This document shows positions 31,168 to 39,845 of a stretch of 64,000 nt of DNA, piece by piece; positions within the stretch are counted from its first letter, which is position 1; each line of letters opens with the position of its first letter. This stretch comes from Candidatus Sulfopaludibacter sp. SbA3. GTDB lineage: Bacteria > Acidobacteriota > Terriglobia > Bryobacterales > Bryobacteraceae. Position numbers and translations under genes: made by a program. The DNA is taken from positions 1-64,000 of the forward strand of contig CAMDCN010000006.1 of the NCBI GenBank assembly GCA_945890485.1. Reading direction: 5' to 3'. The notes beneath the pieces were generated by a model. It had not been told where the DNA came from. It saw only the letters and a program-made list of their open reading frames with translations, and ran no database searches.

Positions 31168-33438
31168 ATGCTTCGTCGTGTCCCGATCGTCTTTGCTCTT
31201 GTCTTATTTGGCATCTTCCCGTCATGGGTGGCCGGCTCTGACGAGTTGAAGCAGCGATTGCAGCGGATCTTCGATTCGCCTGCCTTTCAGCCGAAGCGGT
31301 TCGGTCCGGCCCGCTGGATCCGCGACGGGGCAGCCTTCACGACGCTCGAAGCCGCGCCGTCGGCCGATGGCGCGAAGGAGATTGTTGCGTATGAAACGGC
31401 GACGGGCAAGCGGTCAATCCTTGTCTCGCATCAGCAACTCACGCCCACCAAGGCGACGAAGCCACTTACCGTGGATGACTATCATTGGAGCAACGATGCC
31501 AAACGGCTGCTGATTTACACCGAGTCGAAGAAGGTGTGGCGGACCAATTCGCGGGGCGATTACTGGGTGTTGGACCGGACGACGGGGGCGCTGAAGAAAC
31601 TGGGCGGCGATGCACCGGCTTCCTCTTTGAGCTTTGCCAAGTTCTCTCCCGACGGCGCACGCGCCGCGTATGTCCGGGCAAACAATCTGTATCTGGAAGA
31701 CCTGACCAGCGGCGCGATTCGCCCCTTGACGACCGATGGTTCGGCCAATTTGGTCAATGGCGCTTCCGACTGGGTGTACGAGGAGGAGTTGAACGTCCGC
31801 GACGGATTCCGCTGGGCGCCGGACGGCCAGAGTATTGCGTTCTGGCAGTTCGATGTTACTGGGGTGGAACAGTTCGCCTTGATTGACAACACGAGTTCGC
31901 TGTACCCGAAGATTACCAACATCCCATACCCGAAGACCGGCTCGAAGAACTCCGCGGTGCGGGTAGGGGTCGTCGGGGTGACGGGTGGCGTGACCCGATG
32001 GATGCAGATTCCCGGTGATCCTCGCGAGCACTACATCTTCCGGATTGAGTGGTTGGCGGACGGCGGCGGCTTGGCGATTGGGCAACTGAATCGGCTGCAA
32101 AATACCGCGACGGTGTTCCTGGCGGACCCTCGTTCCGGCACGGCGAAGGCTATCTTTCAGGATCAGGACGCTGCCTGGGTGGACGTGCAGCATCGGGGCG
32201 ACCAGAGTGGCGGTTTCGATTGGTTGCACAAGGGCAAGAGCCTGCTGTGGTTGAGCGAACGCGATGGGTGGAGCCATGCTTATGCGGTGCCACGCGATGG
32301 CGGAGCGCCAGTTCTGGTGACGCCCGGGGCGGCGGACGTCGTGTCCCTGCAGACGGTGGCTCCAGGGAGCGATTCGATCTACTATACGGCTTCGCCGGAG
32401 AACGCGACGCAGCGGTATCTTTATCGCTCGTCCGTAGATCGTCCCGGCCCGGCGGTGCGCCTTACGCCGTCCGATCAGCCGGGGACGCACGCCTACGACA
32501 TTTCCCCGGATTGCCGGTGGGCGTTCCATACCTACTCGCGTTTTGATCGGCCGCCGGTGGTGGAACTGGTGAGCCTGCCGGATCATAAGCGAGTTCGCGT
32601 TCTGGAGGACAACGCCGTGCTGCGCGCCAACGTAGCGTCGTCGCTGGATCCACCCGCCGAGTTTCTGCAGCTCCAATTGGACAATGGAACGGTCGTCGAT
32701 GGTTGGTTGTTGAAGCCGCGGGCGTTTGACCCGTCGAAGAAGTATCCGCTGCTGGTGTATGTGTATGGTGAGCCGGCTGGGGTGACCGTGACGGACTCCT
32801 GGCCTGGGGTCCGCGGACTTTTCCATCGGGCGTTGGCGGCGAAAGGGTATCTGGTCGCGAGTTTCGACAATCGCGGTACGCCGGCGCCGAAGGGCCGGGC
32901 GTGGCGGAAGTCGATTTATGGGGCGGTGGGGGTGATTTCAGCGCAGGAGCAGACGGAGGCGGTGACGGCGTTGGCCCGGGCGCGGAGTTATGTGGATCTG
33001 TCGCGGGTGGGGGTGTGGGGTTGGAGCGGCGGCGGGTCGAATACGTTGAACCTGCTGTTCCGGTCACCGGATTTGTTTCGGGTGGGGGTGTCGGTGGCGC
33101 CGGTGCCGGACCAGCGGTTGTACGACACGATTTATCAGGAGCGTTACATGGGATTGCCGGAGGAAAACGCGGAGGGGTATCGGAGTGGGTCGCCGATCCA
33201 TTTTGCTGAGGGTTTGCGGGGGAAGTTGTTGGTGGTGCACGGGTCGGGCGATGACAACGTGCATATTCAGGGGACGCAGAAATTGGTGAACCGGCTGGTT
33301 GAGTTAGGCAAGCCGTTTGACTACATGGACTATCCGAACCGGACGCACTCGATTTCGGAGGGTAACGGGACGACGTTGCACCTCTACAGTTTGATTGCGC
33401 GGTATTTGGAGGAGCATCTGCCAGCGGGAGGGAGGTAA
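31168..33438 (+). CDS. Dipeptidyl peptidase IV (S9B family), exported
   Basis: 756 residues from ATG 31168 with a signal peptide (VPIVFALVLFGIFPSWVAGS). The N-terminal two thirds is the eight-bladed propeller of DPP IV, including DWVYEEELNVRDGFRWAPDG, where the Glu-Glu pair binds the substrate amino terminus. The C-terminal alpha/beta hydrolase has Ser620 in GWSGGG, Asp695/696 in HGSGDDNVH and His727 in PNRTHSI, the expected triad order. It releases Xaa-Pro or Xaa-Ala dipeptides from peptides in the periplasm. It stands downstream of the TonB-receptor-like gene but behind its own terminator-separated start, so probably has its own promoter. Confidence 0.9.
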   Translation: MLRRVPIVFALVLFGIFPSWVAGSDELKQRLQRIFDSPAFQPKRFGPARWIRDGAAFTTLEAAPSADGAKEIVAYETATGKRSILVSHQQLTPTKATKPLTVDDYHWSNDAKRLLIYTESKKVWRTNSRGDYWVLDRTTGALKKLGGDAPASSLSFAKFSPDGARAAYVRANNLYLEDLTSGAIRPLTTDGSANLVNGASDWVYEEELNVRDGFRWAPDGQSIAFWQFDVTGVEQFALIDNTSSLYPKITNIPYPKTGSKNSAVRVGVVGVTGGVTRWMQIPGDPREHYIFRIEWLADGGGLAIGQLNRLQNTATVFLADPRSGTAKAIFQDQDAAWVDVQHRGDQSGGFDWLHKGKSLLWLSERDGWSHAYAVPRDGGAPVLVTPGAADVVSLQTVAPGSDSIYYTASPENATQRYLYRSSVDRPGPAVRLTPSDQPGTHAYDISPDCRWAFHTYSRFDRPPVVELVSLPDHKRVRVLEDNAVLRANVASSLDPPAEFLQLQLDNGTVVDGWLLKPRAFDPSKKYPLLVYVYGEPAGVTVTDSWPGVRGLFHRALAAKGYLVASFDNRGTPAPKGRAWRKSIYGAVGVISAQEQTEAVTALARARSYVDLSRVGVWGWSGGGSNTLNLLFRSPDLFRVGVSVAPVPDQRLYDTIYQERYMGLPEENAEGYRSGSPIHFAEGLRGKLLVVHGSGDDNVHIQGTQKLVNRLVELGKPFDYMDYPNRTHSISEGNGTTLHLYSLIARYLEEHLPAGGR

Positions 33439-33469
33439 TGACCTGGGATTGGAGCCGGCGACGATTGGG

Positions 33470-33874
33470 TTAACTCAGCCCCAACCAATCTTCGCAACGC
33501 AGGTCTTTGACTCGGGCGAACTCGCGTTTATTGGCCGTTACGAGAGTGAGGCCGAGAGAGATGGCTTGGGCGGCTATGAGGAGATCATTTCCGCCGAGCA
33601 CTTGACCCTTCTTTTCCTGATGAGCGCGAAGCACTCCATAAACATGATCAGCAGGTTCTTCGAACGCGAGGATTTCGATTGCCGCGAGCACGGCCTCGAC
33701 TTGCGCGGTGAGGCGTGCTGACCCCTTCTTGGCTGCGCCGTATCGCAACTCTGCGGCGACGATGATACTGGTGGCCACCTGGGCTTCGCCCAGTTCGCGA
33801 ATTCGGCCGGTGACACGCCCCTGAGGATTCCGAATCAGGTCGGACATGATGTTCGTGTCCAGCAGGTAGCGCAT
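33470..33874 (-). CDS. vapC: VapC-family PIN-domain toxin
   Basis: 134 residues from ATG 33874. All PIN-domain acidic residues are in place: Asp in LLDTNIMSDLIR, Glu in IIVAAELRYGA, Asp in GGNDLLIAAQA and a late Asp/Asn in LVTANKREF. VapC proteins cut tRNA or rRNA with Mg2+. The start codon overlaps the TGA of the antitoxin gene (TGATG), so the two are translated in a coupled way. Confidence 0.9.
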   Translation of the reverse strand: MRYLLDTNIMSDLIRNPQGRVTGRIRELGEAQVATSIIVAAELRYGAAKKGSARLTAQVEAVLAAIEILAFEEPADHVYGVLRAHQEKKGQVLGGNDLLIAAQAISLGLTLVTANKREFARVKDLRCEDWLGLS

Positions 33875-34107
33875 CAGAGATTCACGGCGCGGGGAAGCGG
33901 ATCCATGACTTCTGGCAGGTCTTCATCAAGCGTCGGAAGAGTGGCGAGGACGTCCAGCAACGACTTTTGCGGTGCCAGTTCTACGATGAGGCGATCCCCC
34001 TCTTTCCGCATCACGGCATCCTTGCCGGGGAGTTCGAACTCCCGGGGAATGCGCACGGCTTGGTTCTGCCCGTTTCTGAATAGGCGGACCCGTCGCTCAG
34101 AGATCAT
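33874..34107 (-). CDS. vapB: VapB-type AbrB/MazE-fold antitoxin
   Basis: 77 residues. I choose ATG 34107 because GAGGTG lies six bases upstream; GTG 34113 overlaps that site. The N-terminal RVRLFRNGQNQAVRIPREFE is the swapped-hairpin AbrB/SpoVT DNA-binding domain, and the C-terminal tail (LDVLATLPTLDEDLPEV) should wrap the toxin. An 18-bp palindrome just upstream is the likely autorepression site. Confidence 0.9.
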   Translation of the reverse strand: MISERRVRLFRNGQNQAVRIPREFELPGKDAVMRKEGDRLIVELAPQKSLLDVLATLPTLDEDLPEVMDPLPRAVNL

Positions 34108-34121
34108 TGGCACCTCGTTAG

Positions 34122-34139
34122 CCTATGTTATAGCATAGG
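34122..34139. promoter_or_regulatory. Probable VapBC operator palindrome
   Basis: CCTATGTTATAGCATAGG is an 18-bp inverted repeat with one mismatched pair, 15 bases ahead of the vapB ATG. Its AT-rich centre could also be the -10 element of the minus-strand promoter, which would give direct repression by the VapBC complex. Confidence 0.6.
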
Positions 34140-34178
34140 TTGGCGGAAACTCAGTAGCTGTCGTGTGGAAAACGCCTC

Positions 34179-34184
34179 TACAAT
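34179..34184 (+). promoter_or_regulatory. Candidate -10 element for the small plus-strand operon
   Basis: TACAAT lies 28 bases before the GTG of the 55-residue gene, with AAGGAGG between. No convincing -35 box is visible at the usual distance. Confidence 0.4.
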
Positions 34185-34211
34185 AGCGGACTCAACAAGG
34201 AGGGCAAGAAC

Positions 34212-34379
34212 GTGGCCCTATTTGATCCTTCGCACGCTGAGGTAAAGGAGAGGTCCCTTCATACGTCGGAAGTGATCTCCTTCTTCTTCGATCACAAAGT
34301 GCCGCAAGACCCCGACTGCAGCAGTCCAGTGAGGGACCGATGGCGCGTCCGATCGGGGAACCGCAAACGGTACACTTAG
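34212..34379 (+). CDS. Small hypothetical protein upstream of the I9-like gene
   Basis: 55 residues from GTG 34212, with the strong Shine-Dalgarno AAGGAGG eight bases upstream. It begins ALFDPSHAEVKERSLHTSEV and ends in a basic stretch. A single Cys sits in DPDCSSP. No family is recognised. It is 12 bases ahead of the I9-like gene and should be co-transcribed. Given the RiPP-type enzymes opposite, a precursor or accessory role is possible but unsupported beyond location. Confidence 0.5.
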   Translation: MALFDPSHAEVKERSLHTSEVISFFFDHKVPQDPDCSSPVRDRWRVRSGNRKRYT

Positions 34380-34391
34380 GCCGGAGGGTCT

Positions 34392-34694
34392 ATGCCAGAT
34401 CTTACGAAACTCTCTGCTCCCGCCCGGCACTTGTTGTCTTCTGATGATCTACCGGCTTCGGTTGGATTGATGCTGCGGTTGCGGGCCGAGCCCAGTGATA
34501 CGGAGTTGTTGCGGTTAGAGGATTTGGGCGTTCGTGTCCGCTCAATCGCAGGAGACGTGCTGACGGCCGACGCCGATCCAGCGGTGCTGCCGCAGCTGAC
34601 CGACGAGGCCTTCGTCCTATCCGTAGAGGCATCGGCTCCGCTGTATATGGACGCGCCCGGGGAGGTACCAACTAACTACTCCGATGTGGAGTAG
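34392..34694 (+). CDS. Stand-alone I9-like propeptide/inhibitor domain, related to the subtilase at 37.5-39.8 kb
   Basis: 100 residues from ATG 34392 behind GGAGG. The segment LGVRVRSIAGDVLTADADPA followed by LPQLTDEAFVLSVEAS matches, position for position, GFQTRTVAGDVACGDIAVS and LAALEAVPSITRMEVS in the N-terminal domain (residues about 74-137) of the subtilase. Domains of this type fold the protease and block its active site. As a free protein it could act as an inhibitor or trans-acting foldase. Its stop overlaps the convergent LanC-like gene by 19 bases. Homology is by eye; the role is inferred. Confidence 0.65.
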   Translation: MPDLTKLSAPARHLLSSDDLPASVGLMLRLRAEPSDTELLRLEDLGVRVRSIAGDVLTADADPAVLPQLTDEAFVLSVEASAPLYMDAPGEVPTNYSDVE

Positions 34695-35731
34695 CCAACT
34701 GGCCAGAGGCCCAGGGGAGGCATGGCCTCCGGCGCGTCGAGGCGCAGCGCCAGCAAACCCATGCCCGCGTAACCGAGCATAAATCCGGGGTCCGCCGTAC
34801 GCTCCTCCGTACCGCATAGCCATGCGCCGGCGGCGACCGTCGCGGACCAGAGGCGCTCCGCGGCATTCGAGTACCGGGTATCTTCGAGGACTCGACCGGC
34901 GTACAAGAGCGCATCGATCGTGCCGGCGAGACCGTGGCACAGAGAATGGTTGCGCTCTTCCCACGCTTCGGCTCTTCCGGTGAGGACTCGCTCGGCAGAA
35001 GCCTCCAGCCAAGCGGCGGCGACGGCGGCTTCTGCCCCGTACTCGGGTCGTTTGGTGAGAACGAAGGCACGTAATCGGGTAAGGGTGACGCCGGCAAGAC
35101 CGTGGCACCAGGAGAGCGGAACGGTGCCGTGGGGCGGCTGATTCGATCGCCACGTGCGCGCTTGCCGATCGAACCAGGCGCGCTCGAACAAGAAGCCCTC
35201 GTGAGCTTGGGGGTGACTGGGATCGGCTTCGAGCAACGCCCAGGCCACGCCCGAGGCTCCGTGGGCAAGACCCGGCGCGGGATGCTCCGCGGGCCAGGCA
35301 CAGCCCAGTGCGGTGTCGCCGCCGGTGGAGCGGATGCGCTGGGCGACGGCGGTAGCTTGGCTCCTCAGACCGAGCGCGGTGAAGGCGAGGAGGGTTCCGG
35401 CTTCCCCGGCGACCACATCCCCGCGACCGGGGCCAGGATCGTGAGCCAGGCTGACCGGCGGGGGGACACCGAGCAGATGGGAGGTTCGGTGCACGGCCCA
35501 ATGGGCTCCCGGCGCGCCGCCATGGAAGCCGGGTAGTTTGTCGTTCGCGGTGGCCCACGCGGCAGCCTGTTCGGCGTAGCGTAGGGCCGGCGCGCGATAC
35601 ACGAAATCGCGTGCGGCAAGTTCGGCGAAGAGGAGGGCGATGCCCGCCGCACCTTCATAGAGGTCACCGGAGGGGGGCGGCGGAAGGGCGAGGATTCTCG
35701 CGGCCATTTCGGCGGCGACAGCGTTCACCAT
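34676..35731 (-). CDS. LanC-like lanthionine cyclase
   Basis: 351 residues from ATG 35731 with AGGAG six bases upstream. It shows the alpha/alpha toroid repeats of LanC (GDLYEGAAGIALLFAELA, GLAHGASGVAWALLEA, GFMLGYAGMGLLALRL). Zinc ligands are present: Cys209 in SWCHG, and Cys265-His266 in LCHGLAG; His157 matches the active-site base. LanC enzymes add Cys thiols to dehydrated Ser/Thr, forming thioether rings, in the cytoplasm. The start overlaps the HopA1-like gene by 7 bases, so it is the last gene of the subtilase operon. Confidence 0.9.
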   Translation of the reverse strand: MVNAVAAEMAARILALPPPPSGDLYEGAAGIALLFAELAARDFVYRAPALRYAEQAAAWATANDKLPGFHGGAPGAHWAVHRTSHLLGVPPPVSLAHDPGPGRGDVVAGEAGTLLAFTALGLRSQATAVAQRIRSTGGDTALGCAWPAEHPAPGLAHGASGVAWALLEADPSHPQAHEGFLFERAWFDRQARTWRSNQPPHGTVPLSWCHGLAGVTLTRLRAFVLTKRPEYGAEAAVAAAWLEASAERVLTGRAEAWEERNHSLCHGLAGTIDALLYAGRVLEDTRYSNAAERLWSATVAAGAWLCGTEERTADPGFMLGYAGMGLLALRLDAPEAMPPLGLWPVGYSTSE

Positions 35732-36555
35732 GGGTACTCCTGGCGGCTGCCGGGATTCCGGTATGGCGCGTCCAGGCTGACGCCTTGTTGCTCCAGCAGC
35801 GTCTGGGCCGCCGTCAGCATTGCCGCCTCGTTCGTGTGGGTCGCAAAGGCCTCGGCGAGCCAGCGGCAGCGTTGGCCGCCGAAGCTTTCGCCGGGCACGT
35901 CTTCAGCCAGCGAAATGCCCGGGGCGAGAGGCAGCGCGAACGCCGGATGGACGGGATGAAGCCAAGGTGCGGCAGACGTGGCGATGGCGCGAAGCGCGGG
36001 GACGAGATCGTTCCAGTGGTGGCGTTCGAGATAGAGCACGACGCCGTCCGGGCGAAGGCAGCGATGGAGGTCGAGGGGCGCCTTTACGGCGTAGTGGGCG
36101 GTGGGGGGTAATTGCTCCGTGATGGCCTGGATGAGCCGGAAGACGGACGCCGGCTGGACGGCCCAATAGACGCGGACGGCGGTGTTGCCTTCCGGCGCGG
36201 GGGGGACGAAAGCAGCCCACCAGCCGGCAAGTGCCGTGGACTCCGTGCGCTCGGCAACGTGGCCGCCGACGGGGCAGAAGTCGATGGGGTGGACGGAGCG
36301 CATCTGTTCGCCGCGGCGGACGACCGATTGACCGGAGGAGGGGTCCCAGCCAGCGGATTGCCAGCCGGAGGAGAAGCGCAAGCCATTGGCATCGGCGGCG
36401 CGATAGTGGGCGAGGGCGACAGGCGGGCTGAGGCGGGGGGCCGCGCCGGAACGTAGCGGGGCGTACCACTCCGCGTACAGGACGGCGGCACAATGTTCGG
36501 GGGCTACGGGGGCCGCGAGGCGGACGGCGTCGGCAAGTTGCTGATGGAACCTCAT
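35725..36555 (-). CDS. HopA1-family protein, likely phospho-Ser/Thr lyase (LxmY/TvaD-like)
   Basis: 276 residues from ATG 36555. Marks of the HopA1 family: LYAEWYAP (26-33), VRVYWAVQPASVFRLIQAIT (128-147), HYAVKAP and especially LAPGISLAEDVPGESFGGQR (210-229) followed by CRWLAEAF. In class V lanthipeptides (LxmY) and thioamitides (TvaD), HopA1-like proteins act with an APH-like kinase to convert Ser/Thr to dehydro residues by phosphate elimination. The gene overlaps the kinase stop by 4 bases and the LanC-like start by 7, so all three are tightly coupled. Activity is inferred from the family. Confidence 0.85.
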   Translation of the reverse strand: MRFHQQLADAVRLAAPVAPEHCAAVLYAEWYAPLRSGAAPRLSPPVALAHYRAADANGLRFSSGWQSAGWDPSSGQSVVRRGEQMRSVHPIDFCPVGGHVAERTESTALAGWWAAFVPPAPEGNTAVRVYWAVQPASVFRLIQAITEQLPPTAHYAVKAPLDLHRCLRPDGVVLYLERHHWNDLVPALRAIATSAAPWLHPVHPAFALPLAPGISLAEDVPGESFGGQRCRWLAEAFATHTNEAAMLTAAQTLLEQQGVSLDAPYRNPGSRQEYPW

Positions 36556-37475
36556 GCAGCGTTCCGGTAGACCGCGAACAGGCTTTCCGGAGCCTGGAGC
36601 AGCGCGGCCGCGTGCTCGGCCATCTCTCGCGCCGAGGAGATGGGGCCGCCAGCGAGGGCCACTTCGTGGGCGCTCTGGAGGAGGCGCGCGGCGGCGAGGC
36701 CGGACAGCCGCATGCGAAACGCGCGGGGGTCGGCGGGAGCGTATTGGTCGAGGTAGGCGCGGAGGAAGGCCGAGAGAGTGTTTTGGCCGCCGGCGCCTTG
36801 CAGGGCCATTTTCAAATGGTCCTGGACGATGCCGGCGACGTCCCAGGCTGGATCGCCGGAGCCGGCGATCTCCCAGTCGATGAGGCGGACGCGATCCTGC
36901 TGGACGCAGTTATCGAACTTCATGTCGTTGTGCACCAGGCAGGTGGTTTCAAGGGCGGTGCCGAGGAGGCGCAGCCGGGAGGCGACGGCGGGGCGATCTT
37001 CGACAAGAGTGGCGGTGGCGGGGTTTCCGAAGCCATGGGGCTCCAGAACATCGAGGATCCAGGGCCGGCGCATGGGCAGCGTCAGGTTCGCTTGCGTGGC
37101 GCGGTGGAGCGCCGCGAGATCGGCGCCGAAAGCAGCGGCGGTTGATGGTCCGGGGACGTACTGTTCCCCTGCTGCGCGGACGACGAGAGTTTGGGTGGCC
37201 TCATCTCGGTAGAGGCATTCGGGGAGCAGGCGGGCGAGAGCGGGTTGCGACGCCGCAAGCTCATAGACGGCGAACTCGGCGCCGAGGGTGGGAGCGCCGG
37301 GGGATTCCCGACGTTCCCTGGCTCGTTTGACGATCCAGCGTTCTCCGTTCCGCAATTTTAGGTCGACGACGGAGTGGGAGCTGGAACGGTCTAATGCGTG
37401 GAGGATCAGGCAACTGCAGGGCTTCGAAAGAAGCCCCGCAGCAGCGAGATAGGAGACGAGTTCCTGGGGAATCAT
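36552..37475 (-). CDS. APH-fold kinase, probable Ser/Thr-peptide kinase (LxmK/TvaC-like)
   Basis: 307 residues from ATG 37475, Shine-Dalgarno AGAGGA, nine bases after the subtilase stop. Kinase signatures: Lys50 in RWIVKRA, catalytic loop VHNDMKFDNC (Asp184, Asn189) and metal-binding Asp200 in LIDWE. The fold is that of aminoglycoside phosphotransferases, but the direct linkage to HopA1-like and LanC-like genes points to phosphorylation of Ser/Thr in a peptide or protein as the first step of dehydration. ATP is the expected donor, acting in the cytoplasm. Antibiotic resistance is unlikely from context. Confidence 0.85.
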   Translation of the reverse strand: MIPQELVSYLAAAGLLSKPCSCLILHALDRSSSHSVVDLKLRNGERWIVKRARERRESPGAPTLGAEFAVYELAASQPALARLLPECLYRDEATQTLVVRAAGEQYVPGPSTAAAFGADLAALHRATQANLTLPMRRPWILDVLEPHGFGNPATATLVEDRPAVASRLRLLGTALETTCLVHNDMKFDNCVQQDRVRLIDWEIAGSGDPAWDVAGIVQDHLKMALQGAGGQNTLSAFLRAYLDQYAPADPRAFRMRLSGLAAARLLQSAHEVALAGGPISSAREMAEHAAALLQAPESLFAVYRNAA

Positions 37476-37484
37476 GCGGTTCCT

Positions 37485-39845
37485 CTAGTAGCCGGGGTTG
37501 CCGTACCAGTAGGACATGATGCCGTCTTCGTCGGGAGGATCAGCCGGGGAGTCCGCTGGTGCGTTTTCCGGGGCGGAGGCCCAATCGGCGCTCCAATCGG
37601 CGTTGGCGGTAGCCGCTTGCCAGGTGGCCGGCCCCTCACTCTGCGAAATGGGGTTGATGGCGGGGTTGCTACCTGGGTTGAGGACAACTGTGGGATTCGG
37701 AATGAGCACGCCACAGCCGGCGGAAAGAGTCTGGGTTTGGAAGCAGGCCGGGTTCTGCGTTTGGAAGCCGCAGGCCGGGGCTATCGTTTGGATGTTGCAC
37801 GGAGCGGCCAGGGTCTGGATGGGGCACGGCGACGTGACAGACCGGATGACACAGGGCGGTGCCACCGTGCGGGGCAGGCACTGGGAGGCAATTAGTGTCT
37901 GCGTGGGACACGGCGGATTGATGGTCCGCAGGGTGCATGGCGGCAGTAGCGTCCGACGGACGGTGGGGGCGGCGCAGGCGAAGGCGGCCTGGACGTCGAG
38001 TTTCCCCGCGCCCCAGGCGTTATTGGGAGTAGTGCCGGTGTTGGCGTCCGTCCGCGCGGAGCTGATGAGGCAGTTGCGGATCTGTGCGGCGGTCATGGCG
38101 GGCCGGCGCTGCAGCATGAGGGCGACAGCGCCGGTGACCATGGGAGCGGCCATGGATGTGCCGAACATGCCCTGATACTGGTCAGCGGCGGTGGTGACAT
38201 TGGCCGAGATGAGCGTCTGCCCTGGCGCGGAAAGCGTGGGCGCGGAGCGGCCGTCCCGGGTGGGTCCGAGGCTCGAGAAGCTGGAGATGGCGCCCACGCC
38301 GGCGCCACGGGTGATGTAGCTGCCGACGGTGATGATCTCTCGCGCGGTGCCCGGAACGGAGATGGTTCGGGCGGCGTTGACGAATGGCGGCAGGAACTGG
38401 CTGAACGAGTTCCGTTGGATCCAGGCGTCCCACTGCCCGAAGGAGATCGTGTTGCCCCGCAGCGTGAGGGACCAGTTGCCGGATTGGACCTGGCCCGAGG
38501 TTCCGCGGGAGATGGTGAGGAAGATGCGGTTGTCGGCGTTGCCAGGATCGTTGAGCGAGGAGTCGATGAACAACTGGTTGCCGCCGGGCAGATTGATGGT
38601 GGTCGATGCGGGCGGGTTGACGTTGGCGGTGGCCGCGCCGCCGGGGCGGGTGACGGATACGCCGATGCGGTCCGCGCCGCGGTACCAGAGATCGAGGGTG
38701 ACTTGCGTTACGCCGCCGGGCACGTTGAACTGAACGGTTTGGACACCGCTGGCGGTCAATGTGCCGCTGGCGTGACGATTACGGGCACCCTCATTGCCAG
38801 CTGATTTGACGAACGCGCGGCCGGCGGCGCCGAGGAGGTTGTCGAGGCCCCGCTCGAGCAGGCTGGTGCCGTCGTGAGGGCCAACGTTGTCGCCCTGGCT
38901 CTGGTTGATGACGACGGGGCGGCCGAGGGACTGGGCGAAGTTGAAGATATAGCGAACGGCGTCGAGGGTATCGGCCGAGTCACCGAGTCCGCGTTCGCCG
39001 GCGGCGCGGCCACGATTGTTGGCGACGACGATGATGTCGGCTTCGGGGGCGACGCCGACGAAGGTGAAGGCGGGGCGGCCTTGTCCGGCGACGGAGCCAT
39101 CACCGGCGGCGATGCCGGTGACGTGGGTGCCGTGGAACTGCGCGGCAGCCGAATCCTGATGCCGCACGATGGTGAGCGGGTTGGCGGCTGCGAGGGCGGA
39201 GTTGATTTGGGTCTGCCGATACTCTACGCCGTAGCCGAAGCCGGCGGGTGATGTTTCCGTACCCGTGCGGGCGAGCCCTTGGTCCCAGATGGCGAGGATG
39301 CGGGAGCGGCCGTCGGCGCCCCGGAAGCTCTGATGACGATAGTCGATGCCGGAGTCGATGATGCCGACGATGACGCCGGCGCCGCGATGGCCGGGAGGCC
39401 CGGTGTGGACCGGCGCGACGCGGACATCGGCGGAGGCGAGGTCGAGTTCGTTGTTCAAAACCCGGGAGACTTCCATGCGGGTGATGGAGGGCACGGCTTC
39501 GAGCGCGGCCAGCTGACTGACGGCGATATCGCCGCAGGCTACGTCGCCGGCGACGGTGCGGGTTTGAAATCCGGCCTTTTCGATTTCTGCGATATCGCCC
39601 GTAAATTGGACGAATATACTCACTTCGGGGGGCGCGGCGGTGGATGCCGCGACGCCGAAGGCCGACTCCGTGTCGAGTTCCGCCATCTCCGTGGCGGCGG
39701 TCATGGCAATCATTCTCAGACCAGGATCCAGTTTGCTGTGTTGGGTTGGATCGGTGGTCTCCGCGACTTCGGGCATCGCGTTTTCGTTATCTTCAGCCGG
39801 TTTTGGCCGGCGGGCGTTGGGGTCTTGCGGTCCTCTCTTGGCCAT
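37485..39845 (-). CDS. CspA-like subtilase (S8) with a C-terminal Ser/Thr-Cys repeat tail
   Basis: 786 residues. ATG 39845 is chosen because GAGGTG lies seven bases upstream; the frame is open 18 codons further. Residues 1-70 are polar with no signal peptide. Residues 74-137 form an I9-like domain. The protease domain has Asp164 (GIIDSGID), His238 (HGTHVTG), Asn351 (SAGNEG) and Ser564 (GTSMAAP), with a beta-sandwich insert at about 357-477 as in CspA-like subtilases. Residues 632-711 are nine short repeats, each with Thr/Ser followed by Cys, then an acidic tail rich in Trp and Asp. It leads an operon with kinase, HopA1-like and LanC-like genes. The tail may be their substrate. Confidence 0.9.
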   Translation of the reverse strand: MAKRGPQDPNARRPKPAEDNENAMPEVAETTDPTQHSKLDPGLRMIAMTAATEMAELDTESAFGVAASTAAPPEVSIFVQFTGDIAEIEKAGFQTRTVAGDVACGDIAVSQLAALEAVPSITRMEVSRVLNNELDLASADVRVAPVHTGPPGHRGAGVIVGIIDSGIDYRHQSFRGADGRSRILAIWDQGLARTGTETSPAGFGYGVEYRQTQINSALAAANPLTIVRHQDSAAAQFHGTHVTGIAAGDGSVAGQGRPAFTFVGVAPEADIIVVANNRGRAAGERGLGDSADTLDAVRYIFNFAQSLGRPVVINQSQGDNVGPHDGTSLLERGLDNLLGAAGRAFVKSAGNEGARNRHASGTLTASGVQTVQFNVPGGVTQVTLDLWYRGADRIGVSVTRPGGAATANVNPPASTTINLPGGNQLFIDSSLNDPGNADNRIFLTISRGTSGQVQSGNWSLTLRGNTISFGQWDAWIQRNSFSQFLPPFVNAARTISVPGTAREIITVGSYITRGAGVGAISSFSSLGPTRDGRSAPTLSAPGQTLISANVTTAADQYQGMFGTSMAAPMVTGAVALMLQRRPAMTAAQIRNCLISSARTDANTGTTPNNAWGAGKLDVQAAFACAAPTVRRTLLPPCTLRTINPPCPTQTLIASQCLPRTVAPPCVIRSVTSPCPIQTLAAPCNIQTIAPACGFQTQNPACFQTQTLSAGCGVLIPNPTVVLNPGSNPAINPISQSEGPATWQAATANADWSADWASAPENAPADSPADPPDEDGIMSYWYGNPGY
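37713..37952 (-). repeat. Nine tandem 9-10-residue repeats with Thr/Ser-x4-Cys spacing
   Basis: Pairs in the 786-residue numbering: T632-C637, T641-C646, T650-C656, T660-C665, S669-C674, T678-C683, T687-C692, T696-C701, T706-C711. Eight pairs have four residues between them and one has five. The consensus is R/Q-T-x-x-x-P/A-C-x-x, for example RTINPPCPT and QTLAAPCNI. This is the geometry of (methyl)lanthionine rings. Confidence 0.85.

Follow-up and report, generated by a model that had tools for sequence, protein, structure and literature searches.

A subtilase with a Thr/Ser-Cys repeat tail as a candidate substrate of class Vb-like lanthionine enzymes in Candidatus Sulfopaludibacter

Lanthionine chemistry is known from small peptides, and the precursors of the known class Vb lanthipeptides are peptides. 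According to one account, class Vb lanthipeptides such as mSmoA are made by a kinase (LanK), a lyase (LanY) and a cyclase (LanC), while class Va lanthipeptides and thioamitides use LanX and LanD and no LanC (PMC12291118). Gene clusters combining HopA1-type lyases with LanC were already noted in a 2021 survey that sought conserved short peptides and, in its accessible part, mentions no protease fusion (PMC8153245), and a further study sought open reading frames (ORFs) of <110 residues (PMC9486802). Since both surveys were directed at short peptides or short ORFs, long or enzyme-fused precursors would escape them. Here we analyse an operon in a stretch of 64,000 nucleotides from Candidatus Sulfopaludibacter sp. 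SbA3 (positions 1 to 64,000 of contig CAMDCN010000006.1; hereafter the window), taken from a 7.1 Mb assembly of 35 contigs (GCA_945890485.1; G000), in which a subtilase with a Cys-containing repeat tail is encoded together with a kinase, a HopA1-type lyase and a LanC-type cyclase.

The window operon shares with class Vb the stand-alone PF01636 kinase, the PF17914 lyase and the LanC cyclase, but instead of a precursor peptide with an N-terminal leader and a C-terminal core, the only candidate core nearby is the nine-repeat tail of an apparently intact protease of 786 residues. The dehydratase pair is likewise that of class Va lanthipeptides and thioamitides (LxmKY, CaoKY, TsaCD), whose lyase fold and residues match those of the window lyase; however, the four genes of the operon encode subtilase, kinase, lyase and LanC, and LanX and LanD, which go with aminovinyl-cysteine in class Va, are both absent from it. 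In borosins, as proposed here for the window subtilase, the core is attached to a large folded protein, and we know of no borosin or nitrile-hydratase-like-leader precursor that carries a protease. Precursors with nitrile-hydratase-like leaders also bear the core on a large folded protein (PMC12455567), but both systems differ from the one described here in their chemistry. StdF resembles the window subtilase in having an S8/S53 protease domain within a pathway for ribosomally synthesized and post-translationally modified peptides (RiPPs), yet this domain is fused to a modifying carbamoyltransferase and not to a core (PMC13174530). No description of a protease carrying a lanthionine core was found in the open-licence PMC literature, and within that literature the statement of an earlier, sequence-only reading of this locus that no such system had been described is upheld. 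While the enzyme kinds and HopA1-LanC clusters are already known, a protease carrying the candidate core appears to be new.

The operon and the repeat tail of its subtilase

All four genes lie on the minus strand and encode, in this order, an S8 subtilase (37485..39845; 786 residues from the ATG at 39845, or 804 from an alternative upstream GTG; PF00082, 5.9e-41), a LanK-type kinase of the APH fold (36552..37475; 307 residues; PF01636, 3.8e-15), a LanY/HopA1-type phospho-Ser/Thr lyase (35725..36555; 276 residues; PF17914, 6.3e-20) and a LanC-type cyclase (34676..35731; 351 residues; PF05147, 2.9e-33). The spacing of +9 bases between subtilase and kinase, -4 between kinase and lyase and -7 between lyase and LanC, together with Pfam matches for all four products, confirms the tight operon that had been proposed.

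As a stand-alone PF01636 kinase of the class Vb type, the kinase carries the motifs HNDMKFDN and DWE, and both motif Asp residues are kept in 99 of the 99 aligned rows with a residue there (duplicates included). The best match in the Protein Data Bank to an AlphaFold2 model of the stand-alone PF17914 lyase (mean predicted local distance difference test score, pLDDT, of 81) is LxmY in the LxmKY lexapeptide dehydratase (9dk2_B; E 4.9e-12; template modelling scores 0.61/0.55), and Pseudomonas HopA1 structures rank fourth and fifth. In CaoY, residues R187, K219, R229 and Y236 were described as important (PMC9486802), and these correspond, by approximate spacing, to R128, K158, R168 and Y175 of the window lyase. 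R128, K158 and R168 are kept in 102 of 102 rows with a residue, and the Tyr in 97 of 102, the other five having Phe (duplicates included). The cyclase has the motifs GLAHG, WCHG and LCHG, which we take from NisC to be zinc-site motifs as in the LanC of class Vb; its nearest NCBIfam model is LanM (1.5e-35), matched over the C-terminal part of that model and below the cut-off, and it is the single PF05147 match in its own genome at E <= 1e-5.

The subtilase belongs to the S8 peptidase family by its PF00082 domain and by the triad residues D164, H238 and S564, whose columns are invariant in an alignment of eight rows (A4). Its tail (residues 632-711; 37713..37952, minus strand) consists of nine tandem units of 9-10 residues, as the sequence-only reading had described, with nine Cys at spacings of 9, 10, 9, 9, 9, 9, 9 and 10 residues; eight units have four residues between Thr/Ser and Cys ([T/S]xxxxC) and one has five (Tx5C). 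Against these eight occurrences of [T/S]xxxxC, shuffling the 80 residues 20,000 times gave a mean of 1.7 and a maximum of 6. These repeats are the predicted site of dehydration and thioether closure. The remaining 75 C-terminal residues (37488..37712, minus strand), ending in DGIMSYWYGNPGY, have a net charge of -9 and seven aromatic residues, and may be a follower or recognition element.

The operon is intact in a second genome of the same genus (G479, locus L067), which aligns with the window at 83-84% identity over two blocks, of 10.9 kb and 5.8 kb, that surround and adjoin the operon, and which encodes a full-length subtilase ortholog with ten repeats, the extra one being in register, as well as the acidic end segment. 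Between the two tails, 20 of 21 Thr/Cys columns and 49 of 59 other columns are identical (raw counts). The tail region (residues 626-715) differs by 26 synonymous and 14 non-synonymous codons in 90, and the subtilase part before the tail by 185 and 38 in 625, indicating that the tail is constrained, though less so than the enzyme part. G000 and G479 are the only genomes with a LanY match among the 19 same-genus rows listed. Across the order, subtilase matches at E <= 1e-70 were found in eight of 257 genomes, namely these two and six others whose proteins are 37-39% identical. Downstream of the catalytic Ser, these six contain one Cys or none and lack Thr/Ser-Cys repeats, and their genomes are without a LanY match; three of them have long Pro/Ala/Lys-rich ends. 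Within these 257 genomes the repeats thus co-occur with the operon, being kept in the L067 ortholog and missing from the six nearest operon-free subtilases, which is the association that the sequence-only reading had predicted.

Tailed proteases beside related kinases and lyases

A contig scan with a profile of related lyases and two peptide patterns, which was not exhaustive, yielded 66 relatives among 99 stretches; they span Acidobacteriota, Cyanobacteria, Bacteroidota (e.g. Kordia), Undibacterium, Planctomycetes, Actinomycetota and others. With the window and 38 further loci the survey set comprised 105 loci, of which 91 remained after removal of 14 duplicates and 86 non-redundant kinase loci after five kinase-free loci had been dropped; 77 of the 86 have LanC. 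LanY itself was detected in 26 of the 257 genomes of the order and in eight of 396 genomes of a phylum sample, the own genome included (by single sequence or profile). The system is therefore sporadic, and LanY was set aside as a general marker.

Ten of the 86 kinase loci encode, immediately upstream of the kinase, a protease with a Thr/Ser-rich tail, and these proteases are of four types, an arrangement beyond the view of the sequence-only reading. One S8 lineage comprises the window and L067; a second comprises L012, L070, L072 and L078, with catalytic regions 60% identical between genomes G325 and G503. At E <= 1e-70 subtilases of this second lineage were found only in G325 (one of the 396 phylum genomes) and G503-G505 (three of the 257 order genomes), and in all four genomes the gene lies within such an operon. 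The third type is an astacin of an Acidimicrobiales metagenome-assembled genome (L150; PF01400, 3.1e-48), and the fourth is trypsin-like (L160-L162, from Janibacter, Knoellia and Nocardioides), without a Pfam match at 0.01 and assigned by GDSGS and NFH motifs and a weak profile match to solved trypsin-like proteases (best 9.3e-4, over 67 positions). Among L160-L162 conservation is good in the protease part, whereas the tail varies except at some T, R and C positions. For the trypsin-like type, seven relatives were found on plasmids; the three examined stop approximately at the end of the protease match, with no kinase, lyase or LanC annotated within 3 kb. One tail-less relative, on a plasmid of Rhizobium ruizarguesonis (L169), adjoins an annotated radical SAM protein and an annotated HEXXH peptide-modification protein.

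The tails of all ten proteases have a net charge of +4 to +32 and are followed by C-terminal segments with aromatic residues and a charge of -8 to -34, the limits having been set by eye in both cases; for comparison, 51 automatically picked non-protease precursors have a median charge of -0.5 per 100 residues and a 90th percentile of +1. The astacin of L150 and the subtilase of L070 have unrelated protease parts and a similar tail and end segment, which aligned with scores of 136 bits (maximum of shuffles 89.7) and 122 bits (maximum 65.9; 50 shuffles each). The checked kinase and lyase residues are present in all nine tailed loci that have both genes. In a kinase and lyase tree, which has no outgroup root, these nine loci fall on one side of one branch with moderate support, measured by the SH-like approximate likelihood-ratio test (SH-aLRT 81 with 85 rows) and additionally by ultrafast bootstrap (UFBoot 92/SH-aLRT 82 with 68 rows, 17 near-identical rows having been removed). 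The grouping requires one change in 94% of 200 bootstrap trees of the 68-row tree, and the astacin locus L150 is sister to L070/L072 (100/98).

Cys content and LanC tend to go together. Tails with 7-13 Cys are found in six of the ten proteases (window, L067, L012 and L160-L162), and at all of these loci the LanC motifs are intact; the tails of L070, L072 and L078 have no Cys, and that of L150 has a single Cys at the tail edge. When ten genomes were searched with PF05147, one LanC each was found in G000, G479, G325 and G125 and none in G503, G504 and G505 (Thr-only tails; 99%, 87% and 74% complete), in G238 (Cys-free repeat protein), or in G433 and G556 (kinase/lyase loci with no tailed protease). 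Operons whose subtilase lacks Ser/Thr-Cys repeats, which the sequence-only reading had taken to speak against it, do exist (L070, L072, L078), but their tails are dense Thr repeats and no LanC was found in their genomes, a combination that tail modification predicts.

Of the LanC-positive loci, 76 have sufficient upstream sequence, and in 57 of these an ORF ending at most 1 kb upstream of the kinase domain has at least nine loose Ser/Thr-Cys motifs, the other 19 lying below this mark; none of eight LanC-negative loci reaches it (L078 and L107 were dropped from this contrast). The raw contrast (Fisher 5e-5) has to be read against 202 unrelated positions with a 95th percentile of 9 motifs and a maximum of 23, an automatic ORF choice that took the wrong frame in some loci (e.g. 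L017 and L161), and a clear repeat protein in only three of the eight LanC-negative loci (L016, L070 and L072). The 40 non-protease repeat ORFs of at least 150 residues match no Pfam or NCBIfam family at 1e-3, save for four single weak matches. Such long Cys-rich repeat proteins, which accompany these enzymes in several phyla, would go undetected in searches for short precursors.

Proposed modification of the tail and alternative explanations

We consider it likely that the window subtilase tail is a substrate of the class Vb-like lanthionine synthetase set; this estimate concerns the tail as substrate and overlaps with those given below, the fate of the tail being divided between a permanent arm and self-release. 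From gene order, motifs, conservation and co-occurrence we infer the following chemical steps and role. The LanK-type kinase would phosphorylate the repeat Thr/Ser, the LanY-type lyase would eliminate the phosphate to give dehydrobutyrine or dehydroalanine (Dhb/Dha), and LanC would add the Cys five residues downstream (six in one case), so that as many as nine (methyl)lanthionine rings would form in tandem. The end segment, acidic and aromatic, is probably a follower that offsets the positive charge of the tail and may be a recognition element for the enzymes. The tail itself would be retained as a rigid cationic arm by which the protease is positioned or anchored; we regard such a permanent arm as somewhat more likely than release as a peptide, which follows close behind, and lean to it because different proteases carry the same tail module. 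More tentatively, a dedicated LanK/LanY(/LanC) branch may act on proteases instead of peptides, with a modular cationic tail and acidic end that unrelated proteases (two S8 lineages, astacin, trypsin-like) carry; the tail would be dehydrated or converted into linked thioether rings and retained on the active protease as an anchoring or targeting arm. A parallel, by analogy only, is provided by the exchangeable proteases described in a study of bacterial conflict systems (PMC7159879). If whole enzymes are indeed modified in this way, lanthionine would act at the protein level and provide stable, cross-linked tails that withstand reduction. The module of tail and end could then reveal how LanK and LanY recognise a substrate that lacks a classical leader, and since related modification enzymes are found with different protease types, the question is open to direct testing.

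At the sequence level the tail modification that had been proposed is supported, with favourable outcomes for the predicted co-occurrence of operon and tail, but several observations weigh against it. The kinase scores 33.8 bits (1.9e-8) with the NCBIfam LxmK model, whose cut-off is 315, and hence is not an LxmK equivalog, and the fold match of the lyase to LxmY has a high root-mean-square deviation (11.3). The model of the full subtilase is poor (mean pLDDT 52), and its structure was set aside as evidence for this reason. No transporter or secretion signal was identified for the operon product, and no clear Cys-bearing precursor was identified in the LanC-positive loci L061, L062 and L065. 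L150 has a LanC, the only one in its genome, beside repeats without Cys; in this LanC, Arg replaces both the His of GLAHG and the one that follows the first Cys, which we take from NisC to be catalytic positions, as in no other of the 93 rows with a residue (duplicates included). If the LanC of L150 is counted as broken, there are two independent LanC/Cys pairs, both favourable (p 0.5), and if it is counted as present there are three, two favourable and one without a difference, with Cys content scored by eye and L061, L062, L065, L074 and L107 unscored. With two or three independent contrasts and a coarse motif count, a clean statistical proof that LanC follows Cys was dropped, and the association is a telling pattern. 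PT-rich tails also occur as ordinary linkers, which makes the Thr-only cases weaker, and the support for the tree grouping is moderate because branches are long, that of L012 being among the longest, and the tree is unrooted.

If the subtilase cut its own modified tail, the locus would encode a self-maturing RiPP precursor releasing one or more thioether-ringed peptides as product. An R or Q precedes each Thr/Ser of all nine repeats and could offer candidate cleavage sites; NisP, also an S8 enzyme, is described as removing the nisin leader (PMC10885120), and proteases are encoded separately near related precursors, as papain-type (C1) genes directly upstream of Cys-rich repeat proteins (L015, L018), as an S8 protease (L167) and as S8-like proteins on the opposite strand (L100, L101). 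We nevertheless find self-release possible but rather unlikely, since a site dedicated to self-cutting would require neither the presence of such tails on four protease types nor the common tail and end of astacin and subtilase. Modification might also stop at a point where dehydration alone matters, so that the reactive Dhb/Dha of the tail would attach the protease to other proteins, with ring closure as an extra that is missing in some lineages. This would fit the absence or alteration of LanC beside tails without Cys repeats and the persistence of the checked kinase and lyase residues there, but the window, L067, L012 and L160-L162 keep 7-13 Cys together with intact LanC motifs, and we hold it to be improbable.

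The enzymes could instead act on a small unlinked precursor, with the subtilase as leader protease and its Cys repeats unrelated to lanthionine chemistry. Known lanthipeptide systems do have separate precursors and proteases (PMC10885120), and another kinase/lyase pair, accompanied by a small Thr-rich ORF, is encoded in the genome of the window (L077). However, the 12 ORFs of 25-159 residues with at least two loose Ser/Thr-Cys motifs between 33860 and 40300 are all placed within, across or antisense to known genes, or at either end of the stretch. No credible precursor was thus detected in this interval, in agreement with the sequence-only reading (the rest of the genome was not searched). The subtilase, moreover, occupies the place of the motif-rich ORF of most LanC-positive loci, and the repeats are missing from the six nearest operon-free subtilases, leaving this explanation very improbable. 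Still harder to credit is a role of the tail Cys in disulfides or metal binding, in a protease that is exported, with the neighbouring enzymes serving something else. Cys-rich tails can do so in general, but a crude hydropathy scan found no signal-peptide-like hydrophobic N-terminus in the first 50 residues of the subtilase (maximum 0.73 over 12 residues), a Thr/Ser stands at a fixed distance from each Cys, and Thr tails without Cys are found in the same position next to kinase and lyase.

Further loci and neighbouring genes

The second kinase/lyase pair of the window genome (L077; G000:C5:235000-254900) has no LanC, and the nearby ORF ends Thr-rich with one Cys; in L076 (G479) the lyase is present and no kinase is labelled. 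In L016 (G238) a Cys-free protein of 334 residues with TTTxVGEE repeats, which in our view resemble graspetide cores, is followed by an ORF of 305 residues without a Pfam match and by a lyase-kinase fusion. A protease-like protein is encoded upstream of a kinase-lyase fusion in L149 (Stieleria), where it has a pro-kumamolisin activation domain, and in L154 (Rhodopirellula), with a small Ala-rich ORF in between (77 residues in L149); these S53-type proteases have no Thr/Cys tail and were excluded from the tailed proteases. On a plasmid of Deinococcus sp. QL22 (L167), the genes for a kinase, a LanC-family protein with an additional match to the lyase, and the separate S8 protease follow one another, with an upstream ORF of 201 residues and five Cys.

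Beside the window operon, 33470-34108 (minus strand) holds a pair of ORFs named by eye as a PIN-domain-like toxin and a small antitoxin-like protein, and the stretch 33411-34360 lies outside the blocks that align with L067. Convergent with the operon is an ORF for a protein of 100 residues (34392..34694, plus strand), the inclusion of which explains why the sequence-only reading began its span at 34392. This protein has no Cys, is encoded at the same position in L067 (89% identical) and is subtilase-prodomain-like in a one-sequence comparison (28% identity over 47 residues, E 9e-5); a prodomain-like segment of the subtilase itself (approximately residues 74-127; 39465..39626, minus strand), which with a block pLDDT of 71-89 belongs to the better-ordered regions of the poor subtilase model, bears a weak likeness to it. 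The protein is a possible stand-alone protease inhibitor or chaperone.

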